Part shown: one piece after another, positions 8,411-16,880 of the stretch
Layout: each line of letters opens with the position of its first letter
Numbering within the stretch: the stretch's first letter is position 1
Source: a virus
Reading direction: 5' to 3' (one strand)
Length of the DNA: 42,259 nucleotides
Virus record (IMG/VR): IMGVR_UViG_3300023175_000085
Coordinates: 1-42,259 of that record
The notes under the pieces: generated by a model
What the model was told of the DNA's origin: nothing
The model's database searches: none
Seen by the model: the letters and a program-made list of their open reading frames with translations, nothing else
Position numbers and translations under genes: made by a program

Positions 8411-9079
8411 ATGAAAGCAAGGTTGATTAGTTATTCACAGCCTACGATTGCTACTAAGCAAGAAGGGCTCGAAAATGTACAAGATTTAGTAGCATTTTGT
8501 GCACGGGTTTCTAACCCATCTAATCAGTATAATACTGAAACCAGCGAAAAGCTTTTGAAGTATTTGGCAAAACATAAACATTGGTCGCCATTTGAAATGG
8601 CTTCAGCATGTTTTGAAATTGAAACTACTCGTGATATTGCACGTCAACTATTACGCCATCGTAGTTTTAGTTTCCAAGAATTCAGTCAGAGATATGCAGA
8701 TCCAACTGAGGATCTGGAATTTGTAGTCCGTGAAAGTAGATTACAAGATTTGAAAAATAGACAAAACAGCATCGAGACAGACGATAAAGAGTTACGGAAA
8801 GATTGGCAACTCAAGCAAATGAGTATTATTCATGAAGCAAAGATTGCATATAAATGGGCAATCGAAAACGGAATTGCAAAAGAACAAGCACGAGCAGTTT
8901 TACCCGAAGGACTCACTGTGTCTCGTCTCTATGTAAACGGTACGATTCGTTCGTGGATTCATTACATCGAATTACGAAGTGGCAATGGTACACAAAAAGA
9001 ACACATGAATCTTGCAAGAGCTTGTGCAGACGCGATTTATCGTATCTTTCCTCTTGCAAAAGATTACGTAACAGAATAA
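8411..9079 (+). CDS. thyX: FAD-dependent thymidylate synthase ThyX
   Basis: 222 residues, normal for ThyX. The signature RHRX7S is intact (R82-H83-R84 to S92 in LRHRSFSFQEFSQRY). C-terminal residues with EGLTVSRLYVNGTIRSWIHY carry the conserved dUMP/FAD-contact Arg region. It makes dTMP from dUMP with methylene-tetrahydrofolate and NADPH via FAD, and unlike ThyA releases tetrahydrofolate rather than dihydrofolate. A folate-recycling SHMT is encoded at 15735, and nrdA follows 9 nt downstream, forming a dNTP operon. Confidence 0.96.
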   Translation: MKARLISYSQPTIATKQEGLENVQDLVAFCARVSNPSNQYNTETSEKLLKYLAKHKHWSPFEMASACFEIETTRDIARQLLRHRSFSFQEFSQRYADPTEDLEFVVRESRLQDLKNRQNSIETDDKELRKDWQLKQMSIIHEAKIAYKWAIENGIAKEQARAVLPEGLTVSRLYVNGTIRSWIHYIELRSGNGTQKEHMNLARACADAIYRIFPLAKDYVTE

Positions 9080-9088
9080 GGAGTAAAC

Positions 9089-10879
9089 ATGGATCACCTC
9101 GGTATCCGCATCGATAATAAAAGAAATAAATTACTGTCGGAACAATCGGCGAAGTTATTGAAAGATTATTATTGTCGTGATGATGAAAAGACTCCCCAAC
9201 AAGCATTTGCTCGTGCAGCTGTTGCTTATTCTTATGGTGATCTTGAACTTGCACAAAGAATTTATGATTACGTTTCGAAAGGCTGGTTTATGTACGCGTC
9301 ACCAGTCCTTTCTAATGCTCCTGTAGAAGGTGAACCCGTAAAGGCATTACCTATTTCATGTTTTCTCACCTACGTTCCAGATTCACTGGATGGCCTCATC
9401 GATCACTCAGCAGAACTTCGCTGGTTGTCTGTGAAAGGCGGTGGGGTTGGAGGGCATTGGTCCGATGTTAGAGCAGTCAGCAAAAAGGCGCCTGGACCAA
9501 TGCCTTTCTTACATACTGTCGATGCTGACATGGTAGCTTATCGACAAGGTAGAACTCGTAAAGGTTCTTACGCTGCTTATATTGACGTTGATCATCCCGA
9601 CATTGTTGAGTTTGTCAATATGCGTATTCCTACCGGTGACGTGAATCGTAAGAACTTGAACTTACACCATGCAGTTAACATCACTGATGACTTTATGGAA
9701 GCAGTAAAGGCTGGGGCTGACTGGGATTTAATTGATCCAGATGATAAGACTGTACGTGATACAATGAAAGCTCGTAAGCTTTGGGAGCATATTCTCGAGA
9801 CTCGTTATCGTACTGGTGAGCCGTACCTTAACTTTATTGATACTGCTAATCGTGCATTGCCACAATCTCAACAAGACATGGGCCTTAAGATTCGGGGATC
9901 GAATTTGTGTAACGAAATTCACCTCGTGACCAATGAAGATCGTACAGCAGTATGTTGTTTGTCGTCTGTTAACCTTGAGATGTATGACTTTTGGAAAGAC
10001 ACGACAATGATCGAGGATCTCACTGTTTTCCTTGATAACGTATTGCAATTCTTTATTGATCATGCCGGTGACGAGATTTCTCGAGCTCGTTATTCTGCTC
10101 AACAAGAAAGGTCATTAGGTCTTGGCGCAATGGGTCTCCATTCGTATTTCCAAAGACACAGTATCCCTTTCGGTAGTGAGCGTGCTATTGAAGCTAATGA
10201 AGAAATTTTCTCTATGATTAAAGAGCGGGCTGTGAAGGCAACTCTTGAAATGGGTAAAAAGCGTGGCGAAGCACCTGATATGAAAGGTACAGGTCGCCGT
10301 AATGCTCACATGCTCGCGATTGCTCCTAATGCTAACTCGTCAATGATTGTAGATACATCACCGAGTATCGAACCTTGGAAAGCAAATGCATTTACTTCTC
10401 GTACTCGTGTCGGTTCTCATCTCAATAAGAATCCGTACCTCGAAAAGGAGCTTAATGCCATTGGTCGAAACACCGATGAGATTTGGTCTTCTATTATTAC
10501 GAATGGTGGATCGGTACAACATTTAGATTTTTTAAGTGACCACGTAAAAGAAGTATTTAAGACTGCTATTGAGCTCGATCAGTTGTGGCTTGTGCGTTTG
10601 GCTGGTGATCGTCAAAGGCACCTTTGCCAAGGTCAATCACTTAATGTATTCTTCCCTGCCGGAGCAAGTAAAGCGTATCTTCATCAGGTGCACTATCAGG
10701 CTTGGGCGCAAGGCTGTAAGGGTCTATATTACTTGCGTACTGAAAGCTCTAACAAGGCTGAGAACGTTTCTGCTAAAGTTGAGAGGGAAAAGCTTGATAC
10801 TGTAGTAAATCTTGAAGCAATTAATTTTCAAAATGGTAAGGAAGAATCGCAGGACGAATGTGTAGCATGTCAAGGCTGA
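9089..10879 (+). CDS. nrdA: Ribonucleotide reductase class I, large subunit NrdA
   Basis: 596 residues, shorter than E. coli NrdA (761) and lacking the N-terminal ATP-cone, so overall dATP inhibition is probably lost, as in some phage enzymes. Active-site elements are intact: C91 in LPISCFLTY, the N272-x-C274-x-E276 catalytic triad in GSNLCNEIHL, and C289 in AVCCLSSVNL. The C-terminal CVACQG provides the redox-shuttle Cys pair served by glutaredoxin. AAGGAG precedes the ATG. The partner NrdB lies one gene downstream, with an alternative oxidase gene starting inside the nrdA 3-prime end. Confidence 0.97.
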   Translation: MDHLGIRIDNKRNKLLSEQSAKLLKDYYCRDDEKTPQQAFARAAVAYSYGDLELAQRIYDYVSKGWFMYASPVLSNAPVEGEPVKALPISCFLTYVPDSLDGLIDHSAELRWLSVKGGGVGGHWSDVRAVSKKAPGPMPFLHTVDADMVAYRQGRTRKGSYAAYIDVDHPDIVEFVNMRIPTGDVNRKNLNLHHAVNITDDFMEAVKAGADWDLIDPDDKTVRDTMKARKLWEHILETRYRTGEPYLNFIDTANRALPQSQQDMGLKIRGSNLCNEIHLVTNEDRTAVCCLSSVNLEMYDFWKDTTMIEDLTVFLDNVLQFFIDHAGDEISRARYSAQQERSLGLGAMGLHSYFQRHSIPFGSERAIEANEEIFSMIKERAVKATLEMGKKRGEAPDMKGTGRRNAHMLAIAPNANSSMIVDTSPSIEPWKANAFTSRTRVGSHLNKNPYLEKELNAIGRNTDEIWSSIITNGGSVQHLDFLSDHVKEVFKTAIELDQLWLVRLAGDRQRHLCQGQSLNVFFPAGASKAYLHQVHYQAWAQGCKGLYYLRTESSNKAENVSAKVEREKLDTVVNLEAINFQNGKEESQDECVACQG

Positions 10880-11439
10880 GCCATTATTTTGCCTATGGCC
10901 AGACAAAAATGTTTCGGTTCTTTGCCGATACATTCTTTGCAAAGCGCTATGGTCACCGCGCTGTCGTTCTTGAAACGATTGCCGGTGTACCAGGCATGGT
11001 CGCAGGTATGTGGATCCATCTTCGCAGTCTGCGTAAACTTAAAACAGGATATGGCCCACAAATACGTGAGCTCTTAGCCGAAGCTGAAAACGAGCGTATG
11101 CATCTCATGTTCTTTATTGAGATCGCGCAACCCAATTGGTTCGAGCGAGCCTTGATACTTGTCGCTCAATTTATTTTTTGGCATTACTATTTGATATTCT
11201 ATATCTTCTTTCCAAAGACTGCCCATTTGATGGTGCACTATTTTGAAGAAGAAGCAGTACGTAGTTATGAAAGCTATTTAACTATGATAGCTCACGGTGA
11301 TATACCTAATACTCCCGCACCGCAATTAGCGATTGATTACTATGATCTTAAACCTGATGCAAAACTTTATGATATGGTGTATAGGGTACAGCAAGACGAA
11401 AAACACCACTCTCAGACAAATCATAAATTATCTTTATAA
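10858..11439 (+). CDS. Alternative oxidase (di-iron ubiquinol oxidase, AOX/PTOX family)
   Basis: 193 residues. The family motifs are all present in order: LETIAGVPGM (E39), NERMHLM (E79, H82), FEEEAVRSYE (130-132) and DEKHH (E181, H184), so all six di-iron ligands are kept. The hydrophobic middle (ALILVAQFIFWHYYLIFYIF) matches the monotopic membrane region. The reaction is oxidation of ubiquinol with reduction of O2 to water, without proton pumping. The protein is compact, lacking the long N-terminus of mitochondrial forms. Start 10858 overlaps nrdA by 22 bp; ATG 10867 is an alternative. Placement between nrdA and nrdB is unusual. Confidence 0.92.
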   Translation: MCSMSRLSHYFAYGQTKMFRFFADTFFAKRYGHRAVVLETIAGVPGMVAGMWIHLRSLRKLKTGYGPQIRELLAEAENERMHLMFFIEIAQPNWFERALILVAQFIFWHYYLIFYIFFPKTAHLMVHYFEEEAVRSYESYLTMIAHGDIPNTPAPQLAIDYYDLKPDAKLYDMVYRVQQDEKHHSQTNHKLSL

Positions 11440-11448
11440 GAGGAATCC

Positions 11449-12651
11449 ATGAACGTATTAATTTACTCAAAATCGAACTGTCCATTTTGCGAAAAAGCAA
11501 AAGCTTGGTTCAGACAACATGACTATACATTTACTGAAATCAAGCTCGACGATGAAGAGCAACGTATGTCGTTTTATCAGAAGTATCCACAGGTAAGATC
11601 TGTACCTCAAATCTTTATTGATGACAAGCACATTGGTACATACAACGATCTCATGTCGATTGCAGATACACTCATTAAAAAATCTTCTGGTGGTCTGCTT
11701 GAATTTTCTGAAACTTATAAGCCTTTCCATTATCCTTGGGCGATTGAGATTACGACTCGACATGAAAAAGCACATTGGATCGAAGATGAACTTGACTTGT
11801 CAGAAGACGTGTCAGATTGGAAAGGTGGTAAGATTACACCAATCGAAAAAGAATACATCACTAACATTCTACGTCTGTTTACTCAATCAGATGTAGCTGT
11901 TGGCCAAAACTATTTTGACCAATTCATTCCAAAGTTTAAGAATAATGAAGTCCGTAATATGCTTTCCTCTTTTGCGGCACGTGAAGGAATTCACCAACGT
12001 GCTTATGCGCTTTTGAATGAGACGCTTGGATTACCTGCCGAAGAATATCACGCCTTTCTTGAGTATAAGGAAATGGCAGACAAGATTGAGTATATGATGG
12101 AAGCAGACGTTAACACTATGCGCGGTCTTGGCCTTGCTCTTGCTAAGTCAGTATTCAATGAAGGTGTTGCTTTGTTTGCCTCGTTTGTCATGTTGTTGAA
12201 CTTCCAGCGTTTTGGCAAGATGAAGGGAATGGGTAAGGTTGTTGAGTGGTCGATTCGTGATGAGTCAATGCATGTTGAAGGTAACTCAAAACTGTTTAAA
12301 GCGTTTTGTCAAGAACATCCTCGTATTGTAGATGACGAGTTTAAAGCTGAGATCTATGAGATGGCCCGCCAGGTCGTGAAGCTCGAAGATAAGTTTGTCG
12401 AGCTTGCATATAAAATGGGTGAGATTGAAGGCCTTGAAATGACAGAGGTCAAGCAGTACATTCGATACATCACAGATCGAAGACTCATCCAACTCGGAAT
12501 GAAGCCAAACTTTAAAGTAAAAGACAATCCATTGTCTTGGCTTGAGTGGGTATTGAATGGTGCAGACCACACTAACTTCTTTGAAAACCGCGTGACTGAA
12601 TATGAAGTTGCCGGACTTTCAGGATCGTGGGATGAAGCCTACGCTGCCTAG
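11449..12651 (+). CDS. nrdB: Glutaredoxin-NrdB fusion (ribonucleotide reductase small subunit)
   Basis: 400 residues in two domains. Residues 1-78 are a glutaredoxin with CPFC at 11-14 and the SVPQIFID cis-Pro motif. From about 85 onward is class I NrdB. Ligands visible are E179 and H182 (REGIHQRAY), E238 (FNEGVALF), and E272 and H275 (RDESMH). Y186 sits where the radical Tyr of E. coli NrdB (Y122) is expected, four after the His. The glutaredoxin can hand electrons directly to the NrdA tail. Such fusions are known in a few bacteria. AGAGGA at 11439-11444 is the ribosome binding site. Confidence 0.95.
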   Translation: MNVLIYSKSNCPFCEKAKAWFRQHDYTFTEIKLDDEEQRMSFYQKYPQVRSVPQIFIDDKHIGTYNDLMSIADTLIKKSSGGLLEFSETYKPFHYPWAIEITTRHEKAHWIEDELDLSEDVSDWKGGKITPIEKEYITNILRLFTQSDVAVGQNYFDQFIPKFKNNEVRNMLSSFAAREGIHQRAYALLNETLGLPAEEYHAFLEYKEMADKIEYMMEADVNTMRGLGLALAKSVFNEGVALFASFVMLLNFQRFGKMKGMGKVVEWSIRDESMHVEGNSKLFKAFCQEHPRIVDDEFKAEIYEMARQVVKLEDKFVELAYKMGEIEGLEMTEVKQYIRYITDRRLIQLGMKPNFKVKDNPLSWLEWVLNGADHTNFFENRVTEYEVAGLSGSWDEAYAA

Positions 12652-13006
12652 TCTTTTACCCTATGGCTCAAGTGTCAGTGCGCCGGCGATTACCTTGCCG
12701 GACACTGACCTTTTTAAGAGCGAGCGTGGTACTAACGCAAGTAAATACTTCGAGGAAAGACTCAATCAACTCAATCGAGAATACAAAGAGTTAGTTGAGT
12801 TGGCTCAGCAGACCGAAATGGTTTATCGGGCTCGATATAATTTCGTACCGAAGGTTGGCCATATATATTATCTGTACGAGACAGAAAATGAGTATCTTTT
12901 AAGTTTAATTGAGAACTGGACTCGTTATAAATGTATCGGTGCTTACCGATTTACGGCTGATAACGTATGGGATAAAGTTGATGATCAACAACAAAGTGTT
13001 TGCTGA
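12632..13006 (+). CDS. DUF2452-like small protein
   Basis: 124 residues from ATG 12632, which overlaps the nrdB end and has AGGA at 12621-12624. An upstream ATG at 12602 lies deeper in nrdB without a ribosome binding site. The C-terminal half ([22 protein letters not shown], then [14 protein letters not shown]) has the layout of the DUF2452 family, whose function is unknown. The N-terminal half is a charged helix ([23 protein letters not shown]). It overlaps the next gene by 26 bp, tying it to nrdB and the aminolevulinate synthase gene. Confidence 0.65.
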
Positions 13007-14183
13007 TGTAATCGAAACTCTTAAAACAGAAGGCAAATATCGTGTCTTTAATGACATCGTAAGAACGCGCGGTGAGTTTCCACAAGCTACGTGGTACGGT
13101 AAATACGCACCAAAGACAATTGTCAATTGGTGCTCAAATGATTATCTTTGCATGGGGCAAAATGAATATGTAATTGATGCCATGCAAACTGCGCTTGATA
13201 AAACAGGTGCAGGAAGTGGTGGCACACGTAATATCGGTGGTACCTCTCACTTCCATGTAACATTGGAAAAAGAACTAGCACAATTACATAAAAAAGAGTC
13301 GGCCTTACTTTTTACTTCAGCGTACGTAGCAAATGAGTGGTCACTCGTTGCGCTCAGTAAAATCATATCCAATATCTGTTTTATTTCAGATAGTAAAAAT
13401 CATGCGTCTATGATCATGGGTATTAATCATTCCCGAGCAGATAAAATGATTTGGGCTCATAATGACATGGCCGATCTTGAGCTTGCGTTACAGGTAGCTC
13501 AAAGCAATAACAAAACTCCATGCATTGTTTTTGAGTCTGTTTATAGCATGGATGGAGATGTTGCTCCGATTAAAGAAATATGTGATCTTGCTGATAAGTA
13601 TAACGCAATTACATACATTGACGAAGTACACGCTGTAGGATTGTACGGTAATACCGGAGCAGGATATTGCGAGAAAATAGGAGAAAAGAGGGTAGATATA
13701 ATCAATGGAACACTTGGAAAGGCGTTTGGTTGTCACGGTGGTTACATTGCTGGTGATAGTATTGTTCTTGATGCAATTCGATCAATTGCATCCGGCTTCA
13801 TCTTCACCACATCAACATCACCTGTCGTGTGTGCAGGAGCCATTGCATCAATACGCTACTTAAAAGATCATAACGAACTCAGAGTAAAGCACCAAGAAAG
13901 GGCTGCTACGTTAAAGAATATGATACTTGACGCGGGACTGGAAATACACCCCGCGGCTTGTACTCACATCATTCCCGTGATGGTAGGGGATGCAAAGAAA
14001 TGCAAGTCAATCAGTGATGACTTGTTGAATAAATATGGATTGTATATACAACCAATTAACTACCCAACGGTAGATGAAGGAACAGAACGATTAAGGATTA
14101 CACCAACGCCATTACACGATGACGGAATGATGCATGACTTAGTTACAGCAATGAGGAGAGTATTTGATGAACAACATACGTAA
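12981..14183 (+). CDS. hemA: 5-Aminolevulinate synthase (Shemin/C4 pathway)
   Basis: 400 residues, matching bacterial ALAS (about 400). The PLP lysine is K247 in [10 protein letters not shown]214 in [11 protein letters not shown] binds the pyridine nitrogen. [17 protein letters not shown] and [10 protein letters not shown] are ALAS-type signatures, and the C-terminal QPINYPTV and ERLRITPTP segments also agree. Within the alpha-oxoamine synthase family these distinguish it from BioF and Kbl. It condenses glycine and succinyl-CoA to 5-aminolevulinate, the first step to heme. Start ATG 12981 begins like known ALAS proteins; the longer upstream reading is antisense to nothing and lacks similarity. 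It overlaps its neighbours on both sides. Confidence 0.94.
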
Positions 14184-14613
14184 ATATTTGTGGCGATTAG
14201 CGGGTTTAATTTCTGTTGGCTGTGCCTATATTGGCGCAATTGTACCTGGCATTCCGACCACGGTATTCCTTGTCATTGCTCTCTGGTGTTTTAGTAAAAG
14301 TTCTCCTGCTCTTCAGAAATGGATTCTAGAGCATCCCACGTTTGGACCCTACGTTGTAAACTGGTCAGAAAAAAGAATATATCCAACGAAAGCAAAATGG
14401 ATTATGCTGGCTTGCTGTAGTTTAAGCTATGCATGGTTACTCTATATTCAACTTAAACCGATAGCACTCGTGAGTATTGCATTGTTTATGCTCTTTTGGC
14501 TTGTGTGGGCTTGGAGATATCCTGGTTCGGAAGAAGAGTATGATAGAAGAGTAGCTGCCGGCGAACGGATTGGCTGGTTAAAAGGAGATAGAAATGTCGG
14601 AACGGAAGGGTAA
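14167..14613 (+). CDS. DUF454 (YbaN-like) inner-membrane protein
   Basis: 148 residues from ATG 14167 (GAGGAGAG at 14153-14160). TTG 14164 is an alternative. The sequence [26 protein letters not shown], then [11 protein letters not shown], is the DUF454/YbaN signature. Three to four membrane helices are visible (17-40, 76-95, 97-118). The biochemical function of DUF454 is not established. It overlaps the ALAS gene end by 17 bp, so the phage probably expresses both together. A link to heme or respiration is inferred from context only. Confidence 0.88.
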
Positions 14614-15497: not shown

Positions 15498-15748
15498 TTA
15501 CCATTTATGGAACTAAGCAATGCGGATTTTGTAATAAAGCAGTAGAGCTTGCAAAAAAACATAAATTTAAACATGAGTACAAAGATGTAGGGTACTCAAA
15601 ACACTATCGTGAACTCCGTTCAAAAGATGTCGACATGCGTAGAATACCACACATTTGGTGGGACGATAAATACATTGGAAGTTACGGAGACTTTTATCAA
15701 GAAGTGAGAAGATATTTAATAATGGAGGAATATCGTGCTACATCCTGA
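15494..15748 (+). CDS. nrdC: Glutaredoxin (NrdC-like)
   Basis: 84 residues, typical glutaredoxin size. The dithiol active site CGFC is at residues 10-13. RRIPHIWWDDKYIGSYGDF carries the cis-Pro and glutathione-binding region. It is a free-standing electron donor for ribonucleotide reductase, although NrdB already has its own glutaredoxin domain. Overlaps on both sides (4 bp with 15159, 14 bp with the SHMT gene) imply coupled translation. Confidence 0.92.
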   Translation: MITIYGTKQCGFCNKAVELAKKHKFKHEYKDVGYSKHYRELRSKDVDMRRIPHIWWDDKYIGSYGDFYQEVRRYLIMEEYRATS

Positions 15749-16880
15749 GATTGATCTTATTTGGCGAAAGGAAATGAAGCGACAGCAGAAAACTGTTGAG
15801 CTTATTGCCAGTGAAAATTTTGCAAGTGACGAAGTAATGGCGCTATGTGGTTCAGTGTTTACAAACAAATACGCCGAAGGTTATCCTGGTCGTCGATATT
15901 ATAATGGCTGTGACCACATGGATGAGATCGAAACTTTTGCGATTGAGCAATTGAAATCTCTCTATGGGTGTAAGTATGCTAACGTTCAACCGCACTCTGG
16001 TGCTAACGCTAATGCTGCAGTCTTTCAGGCTTTCTTGAGACCTGGCGATCGTATCCTTGGTATGGATCTCGCGAGTGGAGGCCACCTTTCTCACGGTGCA
16101 CCAGTCAACATGTCAGGTAAGATATATGATGCTGTTTCTTATGGTGTCGATCATAATGGATATATTGATTATGATGAGGTGATGAAACTTGCTTATAATT
16201 ACAGACCTCGAATGATTATCGCCGGTGCTTCTGCTTACCCTCGTCAGATTGACTGGGAAACATTTAGATTTATTGCTGATCAGGTTGGTGCGCTTCTTAT
16301 GGTTGATATGGCACACTACTCTGGGCTGATCGCGGCAGGTGTCTACGATAACCCTCTTGAATTTGCAGACATTGTAACAAGCACGACTCATAAAACTTTA
16401 CGCGGTCCTCGTGGTGGAATCATCTTATGGAATGACTCACAATACACTAAGAAAATTAATAGTGCAGTCTTTCCTGGCACGCAGGGTGGACCACTCATGA
16501 ATATTATCGCCGCTAAAGCTCAGGCATTTGTCGAAGCTTCTACTCTCGACTTTGAAAAATACGGAGCTCAAGTAATTAAGAATGCCCAGGCGATGGCCGG
16601 TGTTTTTAAGGATGCCGGCTTTGATATTTTGACTGGTGGTACAGATAGTCATATCATTCTACTCGATCTTCGAAGGAGTAAATACTCAGGTAGAGAAGCT
16701 GCTGACAAGCTCGAAGCTCGAGGGATTACGGTAAACAAAAATGGAGTACCAAACGATCCACGACCATTTATGGAAACGTCTGGTATACGAATAGGCACTG
16801 CTGCCGAAACAACAAGAGGACACGATGAGATTTGGTTTGCACATTTAACTAAAAGAATCGTGAAACATTTAAGTGACTGA
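15735..16880 (+). CDS. glyA: Serine hydroxymethyltransferase
   Basis: 381 residues, about 35 shorter than E. coli GlyA but with the core intact. The PLP lysine is K220 in VTSTTHKTLRGPRGG. The N-terminal IASENFAS and NKYAEGYPGRRYY signatures and the DMAHYSGLIAAG motif are present. It converts serine and tetrahydrofolate to glycine and methylene-tetrahydrofolate. The products serve ThyX (8411) and 5-aminolevulinate synthase (12981) in the same gene cluster. It starts at GTG 15735 with GGAGG at 15724-15728. Shortening is mostly toward the C-terminal domain, and activity is likely but untested. Confidence 0.95.
   Translation: MLHPEIDLIWRKEMKRQQKTVELIASENFASDEVMALCGSVFTNKYAEGYPGRRYYNGCDHMDEIETFAIEQLKSLYGCKYANVQPHSGANANAAVFQAFLRPGDRILGMDLASGGHLSHGAPVNMSGKIYDAVSYGVDHNGYIDYDEVMKLAYNYRPRMIIAGASAYPRQIDWETFRFIADQVGALLMVDMAHYSGLIAAGVYDNPLEFADIVTSTTHKTLRGPRGGIILWNDSQYTKKINSAVFPGTQGGPLMNIIAAKAQAFVEASTLDFEKYGAQVIKNAQAMAGVFKDAGFDILTGGTDSHIILLDLRRSKYSGREAADKLEARGITVNKNGVPNDPRPFMETSGIRIGTAAETTRGHDEIWFAHLTKRIVKHLSD

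Follow-up and report, generated by a model that had tools for sequence, protein, structure and literature searches.

A probable phage 5-aminolevulinate synthase gene in a T4-like virus and its conserved gene order with a DUF454 gene

Genes surrounding the ALAS locus

The analyzed stretch of DNA, referred to here as the window, is a whole linear IMG/VR virus record of 42,259 bases. Its primase is most similar to those of T4-like Sinorhizobium phages (47%), and its large relatives, 137–170 kb in length, have a Gp23 capsid protein of the T4 type; together, these proteins indicate that the window virus is T4-like. Among its other genes are a PhoH-like gene, an endolysin, a dNMP kinase, and an exonuclease. 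The main genes discussed below lie on the plus strand, in a region that contains both subunits of a ribonucleotide reductase (RNR): the large subunit NrdA (9089–10879; phrog_84, E 1.5e-165) and a glutaredoxin–NrdB fusion, which is the class I small subunit (11449–12651; NF009398, 688.1 bits against a cut-off of 649). This fusion gene is the anchor of an accessory-gene region. Further downstream lies a serine hydroxymethyltransferase (15735–16880; NF000586, 561.7 bits; PF00464, E 2.7e-146), an enzyme that yields glycine and methylene-THF. Its presence fits with dTMP synthesis together with a gene at 8411–9079, which by its sequence reads as ThyX-like, and it may supply glycine to the 5-aminolevulinate synthase (ALAS) as well.

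The 400-residue ALAS is encoded at 12981–14183, between two short genes that overlap it. The upstream gene (12602–13006) ends inside the start of the ALAS gene, with an overlap of 26 bp, and encodes a DUF2452-like protein; this assignment is real but weak (33.9 bits to PF10504, for which the cut-off is 25 bits). The downstream gene (14167–14613) encodes a small membrane protein of the YbaN-type DUF454 family (PF04304, E 1.8e-30, 105.8 bits against a cut-off of 35.1). We take the ATG at 14167 as its start, one codon past the TTG of the listed frame (14164), so that the two genes share 17 bp up to the ALAS stop; an AGGAG a few bases upstream of this ATG provides a ribosome-binding sequence. Both overlaps recur in close relatives. 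The earlier note described the three genes as translationally coupled; the overlaps would permit such coupling, and the immediate ALAS–DUF454 link is conserved.

The DUF454 protein was modeled as a helical structure (pLDDT 79), for which a Foldseek search of the PDB returned no significant match. It scores above the Pfam cut-off of the family that includes Escherichia coli YbaN, but its 63.1 bits do not reach the cut-off of 163 set for YbaN equivalogs, and in a phylogenetic tree phage DUF454 proteins form a clade of their own, distinct from those of Alphaproteobacteria. We found no convincing DUF454 in GenBank phages and no literature linking DUF454 to heme or to phages.

Between nrdA and nrdB, the window encodes an alternative oxidase (AOX), a heme-free di-iron quinol oxidase (10858–11439; PF01786, E 1.5e-65, 221.3 bits against a cut-off of 22.7). 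Alignment with the structure of a mitochondrial AOX (9kun) recovers the di-iron ligand motifs LET, NERMHL, EEEA, and DExxH. It belongs to the same wider oxidase family as the cyanophage plastoquinol terminal oxidase (phrog_4235), but matches the latter only at E 7e-4. Canonical AOX is widespread in marine virus sequences, with relatives on 473 IMG/VR contigs, yet it is present in only one of 50,697 GenBank phage records, and our literature search found nothing on AOX in non-cyanobacterial phages. The AOX gene is separated from ALAS by nrdB and the DUF2452 gene. Within the ALAS clade, it lies either between nrdA and nrdB or directly after ALAS, and is missing in sister loci; it is thus optional and mobile among the relatives. 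AOX was rejected as a specific partner of ALAS because, of the 80 best phage loci with AOX, just 5 have an ALAS gene close by. Outside the window clade, the DUF2452 gene is confined to a few loci (L017–L020, L042, and L044). The suggestion in the earlier note that AOX and DUF2452 belong specifically with ALAS was therefore not upheld: the former is widespread in phages that lack ALAS, and the latter is limited to few lineages.

Identity and ancestry of the viral ALAS

Profile comparisons assign the window protein to ALAS within the alpha-oxoamine synthases. It scores 566.6 bits against the NCBIfam model TIGR01821, 228 bits over the cut-off of 338.55, and stays below the cut-offs of the bioF model (317 vs 426 bits), the glycine C-acetyltransferase (Kbl) models (270–318 vs 460–493 bits), and the serine palmitoyltransferase models. 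The nearest solved structures (7x98, 2bwn, and 5qqq) are all ALAS. Alignment with the Rhodobacter capsulatus enzyme (2bwn) revealed full-length homology and shared active-site residues. The PLP lysine K247 (codon at 13719–13721) corresponds to R. capsulatus K248, and the catalytic residues D214, H217, H141, S189, T244, and R372 are likewise conserved. T82 and N84 correspond to R. capsulatus T83 and N85, which contact the succinyl group. These two residues of the succinyl-CoA-selective T-R-N motif are present in all viral ALAS, whereas the outgroup has S and L; together with K247, they are invariant among 78 viral and 61 bacterial ALAS. The ALAS signature set recognized in the earlier note, including the PLP lysine, is thus confirmed by both the model score and the catalytic residues. 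Furthermore, dN/dS values of 0.08–0.10 against three close relatives point to purifying selection, so the open reading frame is not due to chance.

To place the protein among its homologs, a FastTree phylogeny of 146 ALAS was rooted on two BioF/Kbl-like sequences. Virus-type ALAS form one clade of 82 leaves (support 0.93), whose sister group consists of a Pelagibacteraceae pair and one viral contig (L385; support 0.99). The joint clade is nested within alphaproteobacterial ALAS (support 0.994), so that the window ALAS lies next to Pelagibacteraceae ALAS and apart from the BioF/Kbl-like outgroup. Given this position and the model scores, the reading of the gene as a phage ALAS, and not as BioF or Kbl, stands. 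A BioF/Kbl-type enzyme acting on another substrate would explain the common fold and the strong similarity to BioF/Kbl models (E about 1e-94), but we regard it as highly improbable, since the protein falls below every BioF/Kbl cut-off, carries T82 and N84 of the ALAS type, and is separated from these enzymes in the tree. The window gene almost certainly encodes a working enzyme, as judged from its sequence, and very probably represents a functional auxiliary metabolic gene by which a T4-like virus encodes 5-aminolevulinate synthase.

Several sequences from bacterial genome bins fall within the viral clade. ALAS loci from Rhodobacteraceae, Marinimicrobia, and Flavobacteriales bins (L047, L048, L050, L051, and L110) resemble phage contigs that were wrongly assigned to MAGs, and of these, L047, L050, L051, and L110 are the viral-looking sequences found inside the clade. 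The other bacterial member of the 82 leaves, L049 (6001–7188), is located on a Neisseriaceae chromosome (PsAf), where its neighbors resemble pdxA, surA, and lptD. In the tree it falls among the freshwater viral ALAS (support 0.98), and it has no DUF454; its position may reflect a phage-to-bacterium transfer. The viral contig L385 is related to the others through nrdB and carries a differing ALAS (59%) that groups with Pelagibacteraceae, without DUF454 on the contig. This gene is probably a separate acquisition.

Phage ALAS genes (valaS) have been described from aquatic metagenomes, where they occur alone or alongside hemO and pcyA/X, and the activity of one such enzyme was demonstrated by experiment (Wegner et al, 2024, Nat Commun 15:8783; PMC11480375). 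A homologous phage ALAS works in a complementation test. The window gene thus joins a known kind, and the remark in the earlier note that phage Shemin-pathway genes occur in aquatic metagenomes is borne out. As in the published account of valaS, the phage clade found here is separate from bacterial ALAS and nearest to Pelagibacteraceae, and the window protein keeps the catalytic residues and lacks the heme-feedback residues: R. capsulatus H342 is replaced by K340, and the C-terminal Cys is absent. The same paper proposes that the absence of heme-inhibition residues releases the viral enzyme from feedback. This proposal needs care, because the heme-inhibition His was present in only 7 of the 61 bacterial ALAS examined; for the same reason, its loss was rejected as a hallmark of phage ALAS. 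The window differs from the valaS loci as presented in the main text of that paper in its conserved DUF2452 and DUF454 overlaps and in its nrdAB region with AOX. ALAS relatives are common in viruses, being encoded on at least 589 IMG/VR contigs. In GenBank phages, we found no true ALAS; the matches there were Kbl/BioF-like, with 28–36% identity, and many were apparently host DNA.

ALAS, DUF454, and tetrapyrrole genes in related viruses

Counts of co-occurrence across viral loci revealed a close link between ALAS and DUF454. In 71 of 80 viral loci, ALAS is followed by a DUF454 gene of the same orientation, and the remaining nine contigs stop within 1.4 kb; in the marine clade, every contig that extends more than 1.4 kb past ALAS has DUF454 there. 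When contigs were anchored on NrdB, 30 had both genes, one had ALAS only, two had DUF454 only, and six had neither (Fisher p 6e-5). The pair is also kept at seven loci without nrd or primase genes nearby (L176, L183, L187, L192, L194, L195, and L199). In many relatives, a conserved membrane protein of 274–359 residues (MKWLTLFTS...; for example, L008 2325–3149) is encoded between ALAS and DUF454, sometimes accompanied by Clp-protease-like and GroES-like genes.

The arrangement varies in freshwater viruses. Here, ALAS is found near a DUF454 gene on the opposite strand, and DUF454 also occupies a separate site behind nrdB. The contigs L375 and L381, both of which lack ALAS, have DUF454 52–55 bp after nrdB. 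At 62 of 80 freshwater DUF454 loci there is no ALAS nearby; several of these phages have it elsewhere on the contig, and one 163-kb contig lacks it entirely. A hidden heme gene in the 1.3-kb gap between nrdB and DUF454 of freshwater phages was considered and rejected, as the open reading frames in this gap read as glutaredoxin, PAAR-like, and peptidase-like. In the cellular-genome collection, DUF454 was present at only 5 of 74 ALAS-family loci, and these five resemble phage contigs in bins; no clearly cellular ALAS locus examined had DUF454 within 6 kb. Among 30 alphaproteobacterial DUF454 genes, the surroundings of 28 showed no recurring heme gene.

In a set of 50 contigs with ALAS, which includes many short ones, 13 contained a heme oxygenase gene, with bilin reductase beside it. 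In G001 and G007, the nearest of the large relatives, the two genes are adjacent to each other about 29 kb upstream of ALAS in contig coordinates, a position that falls outside the window, which spans only 13 kb upstream of ALAS. The bilin branch is not universal, since neither gene was found in two long relatives of 137 and 156 kb. Three contigs of 60–163 kb that have DUF454 and lack ALAS contain heme oxygenase, one 39-kb contig with DUF454 has neither, and 13 AOX-anchored contigs have none of ALAS, DUF454, and heme oxygenase. This pattern hints that DUF454 follows tetrapyrrole genes, and anchor choice and shared ancestry could also produce it. The heme- or tetrapyrrole-related module envisaged in the earlier note is thus partly supported, by the heme oxygenase and bilin reductase genes of the relatives, whereas AOX and DUF2452 lend it no support.

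Functional pair or inherited gene order

A functional tie between ALAS and DUF454 is possible: the membrane protein could handle a tetrapyrrole or otherwise support the pathway, and phages would retain both genes. The same-strand order in nearly all viral loci, the NrdB-anchored counts, the persistence of the pair away from nrd and primase genes, the heme oxygenase on the DUF454-positive contigs without ALAS, and the joint absence of all three genes from the AOX-anchored contigs argue for such a pair. We nevertheless consider it unlikely. The DUF454 tree is strongly clade-structured, so that few independent events underlie the association, and the compared contigs were chosen by differing anchors. 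In addition, L385 has ALAS without DUF454, the 39-kb contig has DUF454 without ALAS or heme oxygenase, DUF454 occupies a separate place behind nrdB in freshwater phages, and neither the clearly cellular ALAS loci examined nor the alphaproteobacterial DUF454 neighborhoods repeat the link.

We prefer the reading that the arrangement reflects inherited gene order, which we think likely. Here, ALAS, AOX, SHMT, and DUF2452 would be separate accessory genes in an nrdAB hotspot, and DUF454 a resident of the region, with ALAS inserted between nrdB and DUF454. The DUF454 genes directly behind nrdB in L375 and L381, the two positions and patchy presence of AOX among sister loci, and the rarity of ALAS near AOX are all consistent with inherited gene order. 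It accounts less well for the ALAS–DUF454 adjacency where no nrd genes lie in the vicinity and for the freshwater viruses with ALAS near an opposite-strand DUF454. As for novelty, the main text of Wegner et al (2024) makes no mention of DUF454, DUF2452, or AOX. Of the coupling that the earlier note took to be new, the conserved ALAS–DUF454 order looks new; phage ALAS itself is known, and AOX and DUF2452 are unspecific.

In the infected cell, the window ALAS would most likely convert glycine and succinyl-CoA to 5-aminolevulinate, as suggested by its family and by the published phage enzyme, and host enzymes would carry this product on to heme. For the nearest of the large relatives, part of the heme may then be turned into a bilin, with release of iron, by the phage-encoded heme oxygenase and ferredoxin-dependent bilin reductase. 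The ALAS gene lies in the accessory-gene region next to nrdAB, and DUF454, a small membrane protein that is conserved and inherited together with ALAS, would be translated from a ribosome-binding site that overlaps the ALAS gene. That phage DUF454 acts as a dedicated membrane partner of a tetrapyrrole programme comprising ALAS, heme oxygenase, and bilin reductase, for example by holding or moving tetrapyrroles, is a speculative proposal that we consider very doubtful.

A phage ALAS would offer a one-step supply of heme precursor in the infected cell, whatever route the host uses. Through gene order, it is tied to DUF454, a widespread bacterial family without known function. If this tie were functional, phages would point to a role for DUF454, and a partnership in a tetrapyrrole programme, if true, would give the family a function.
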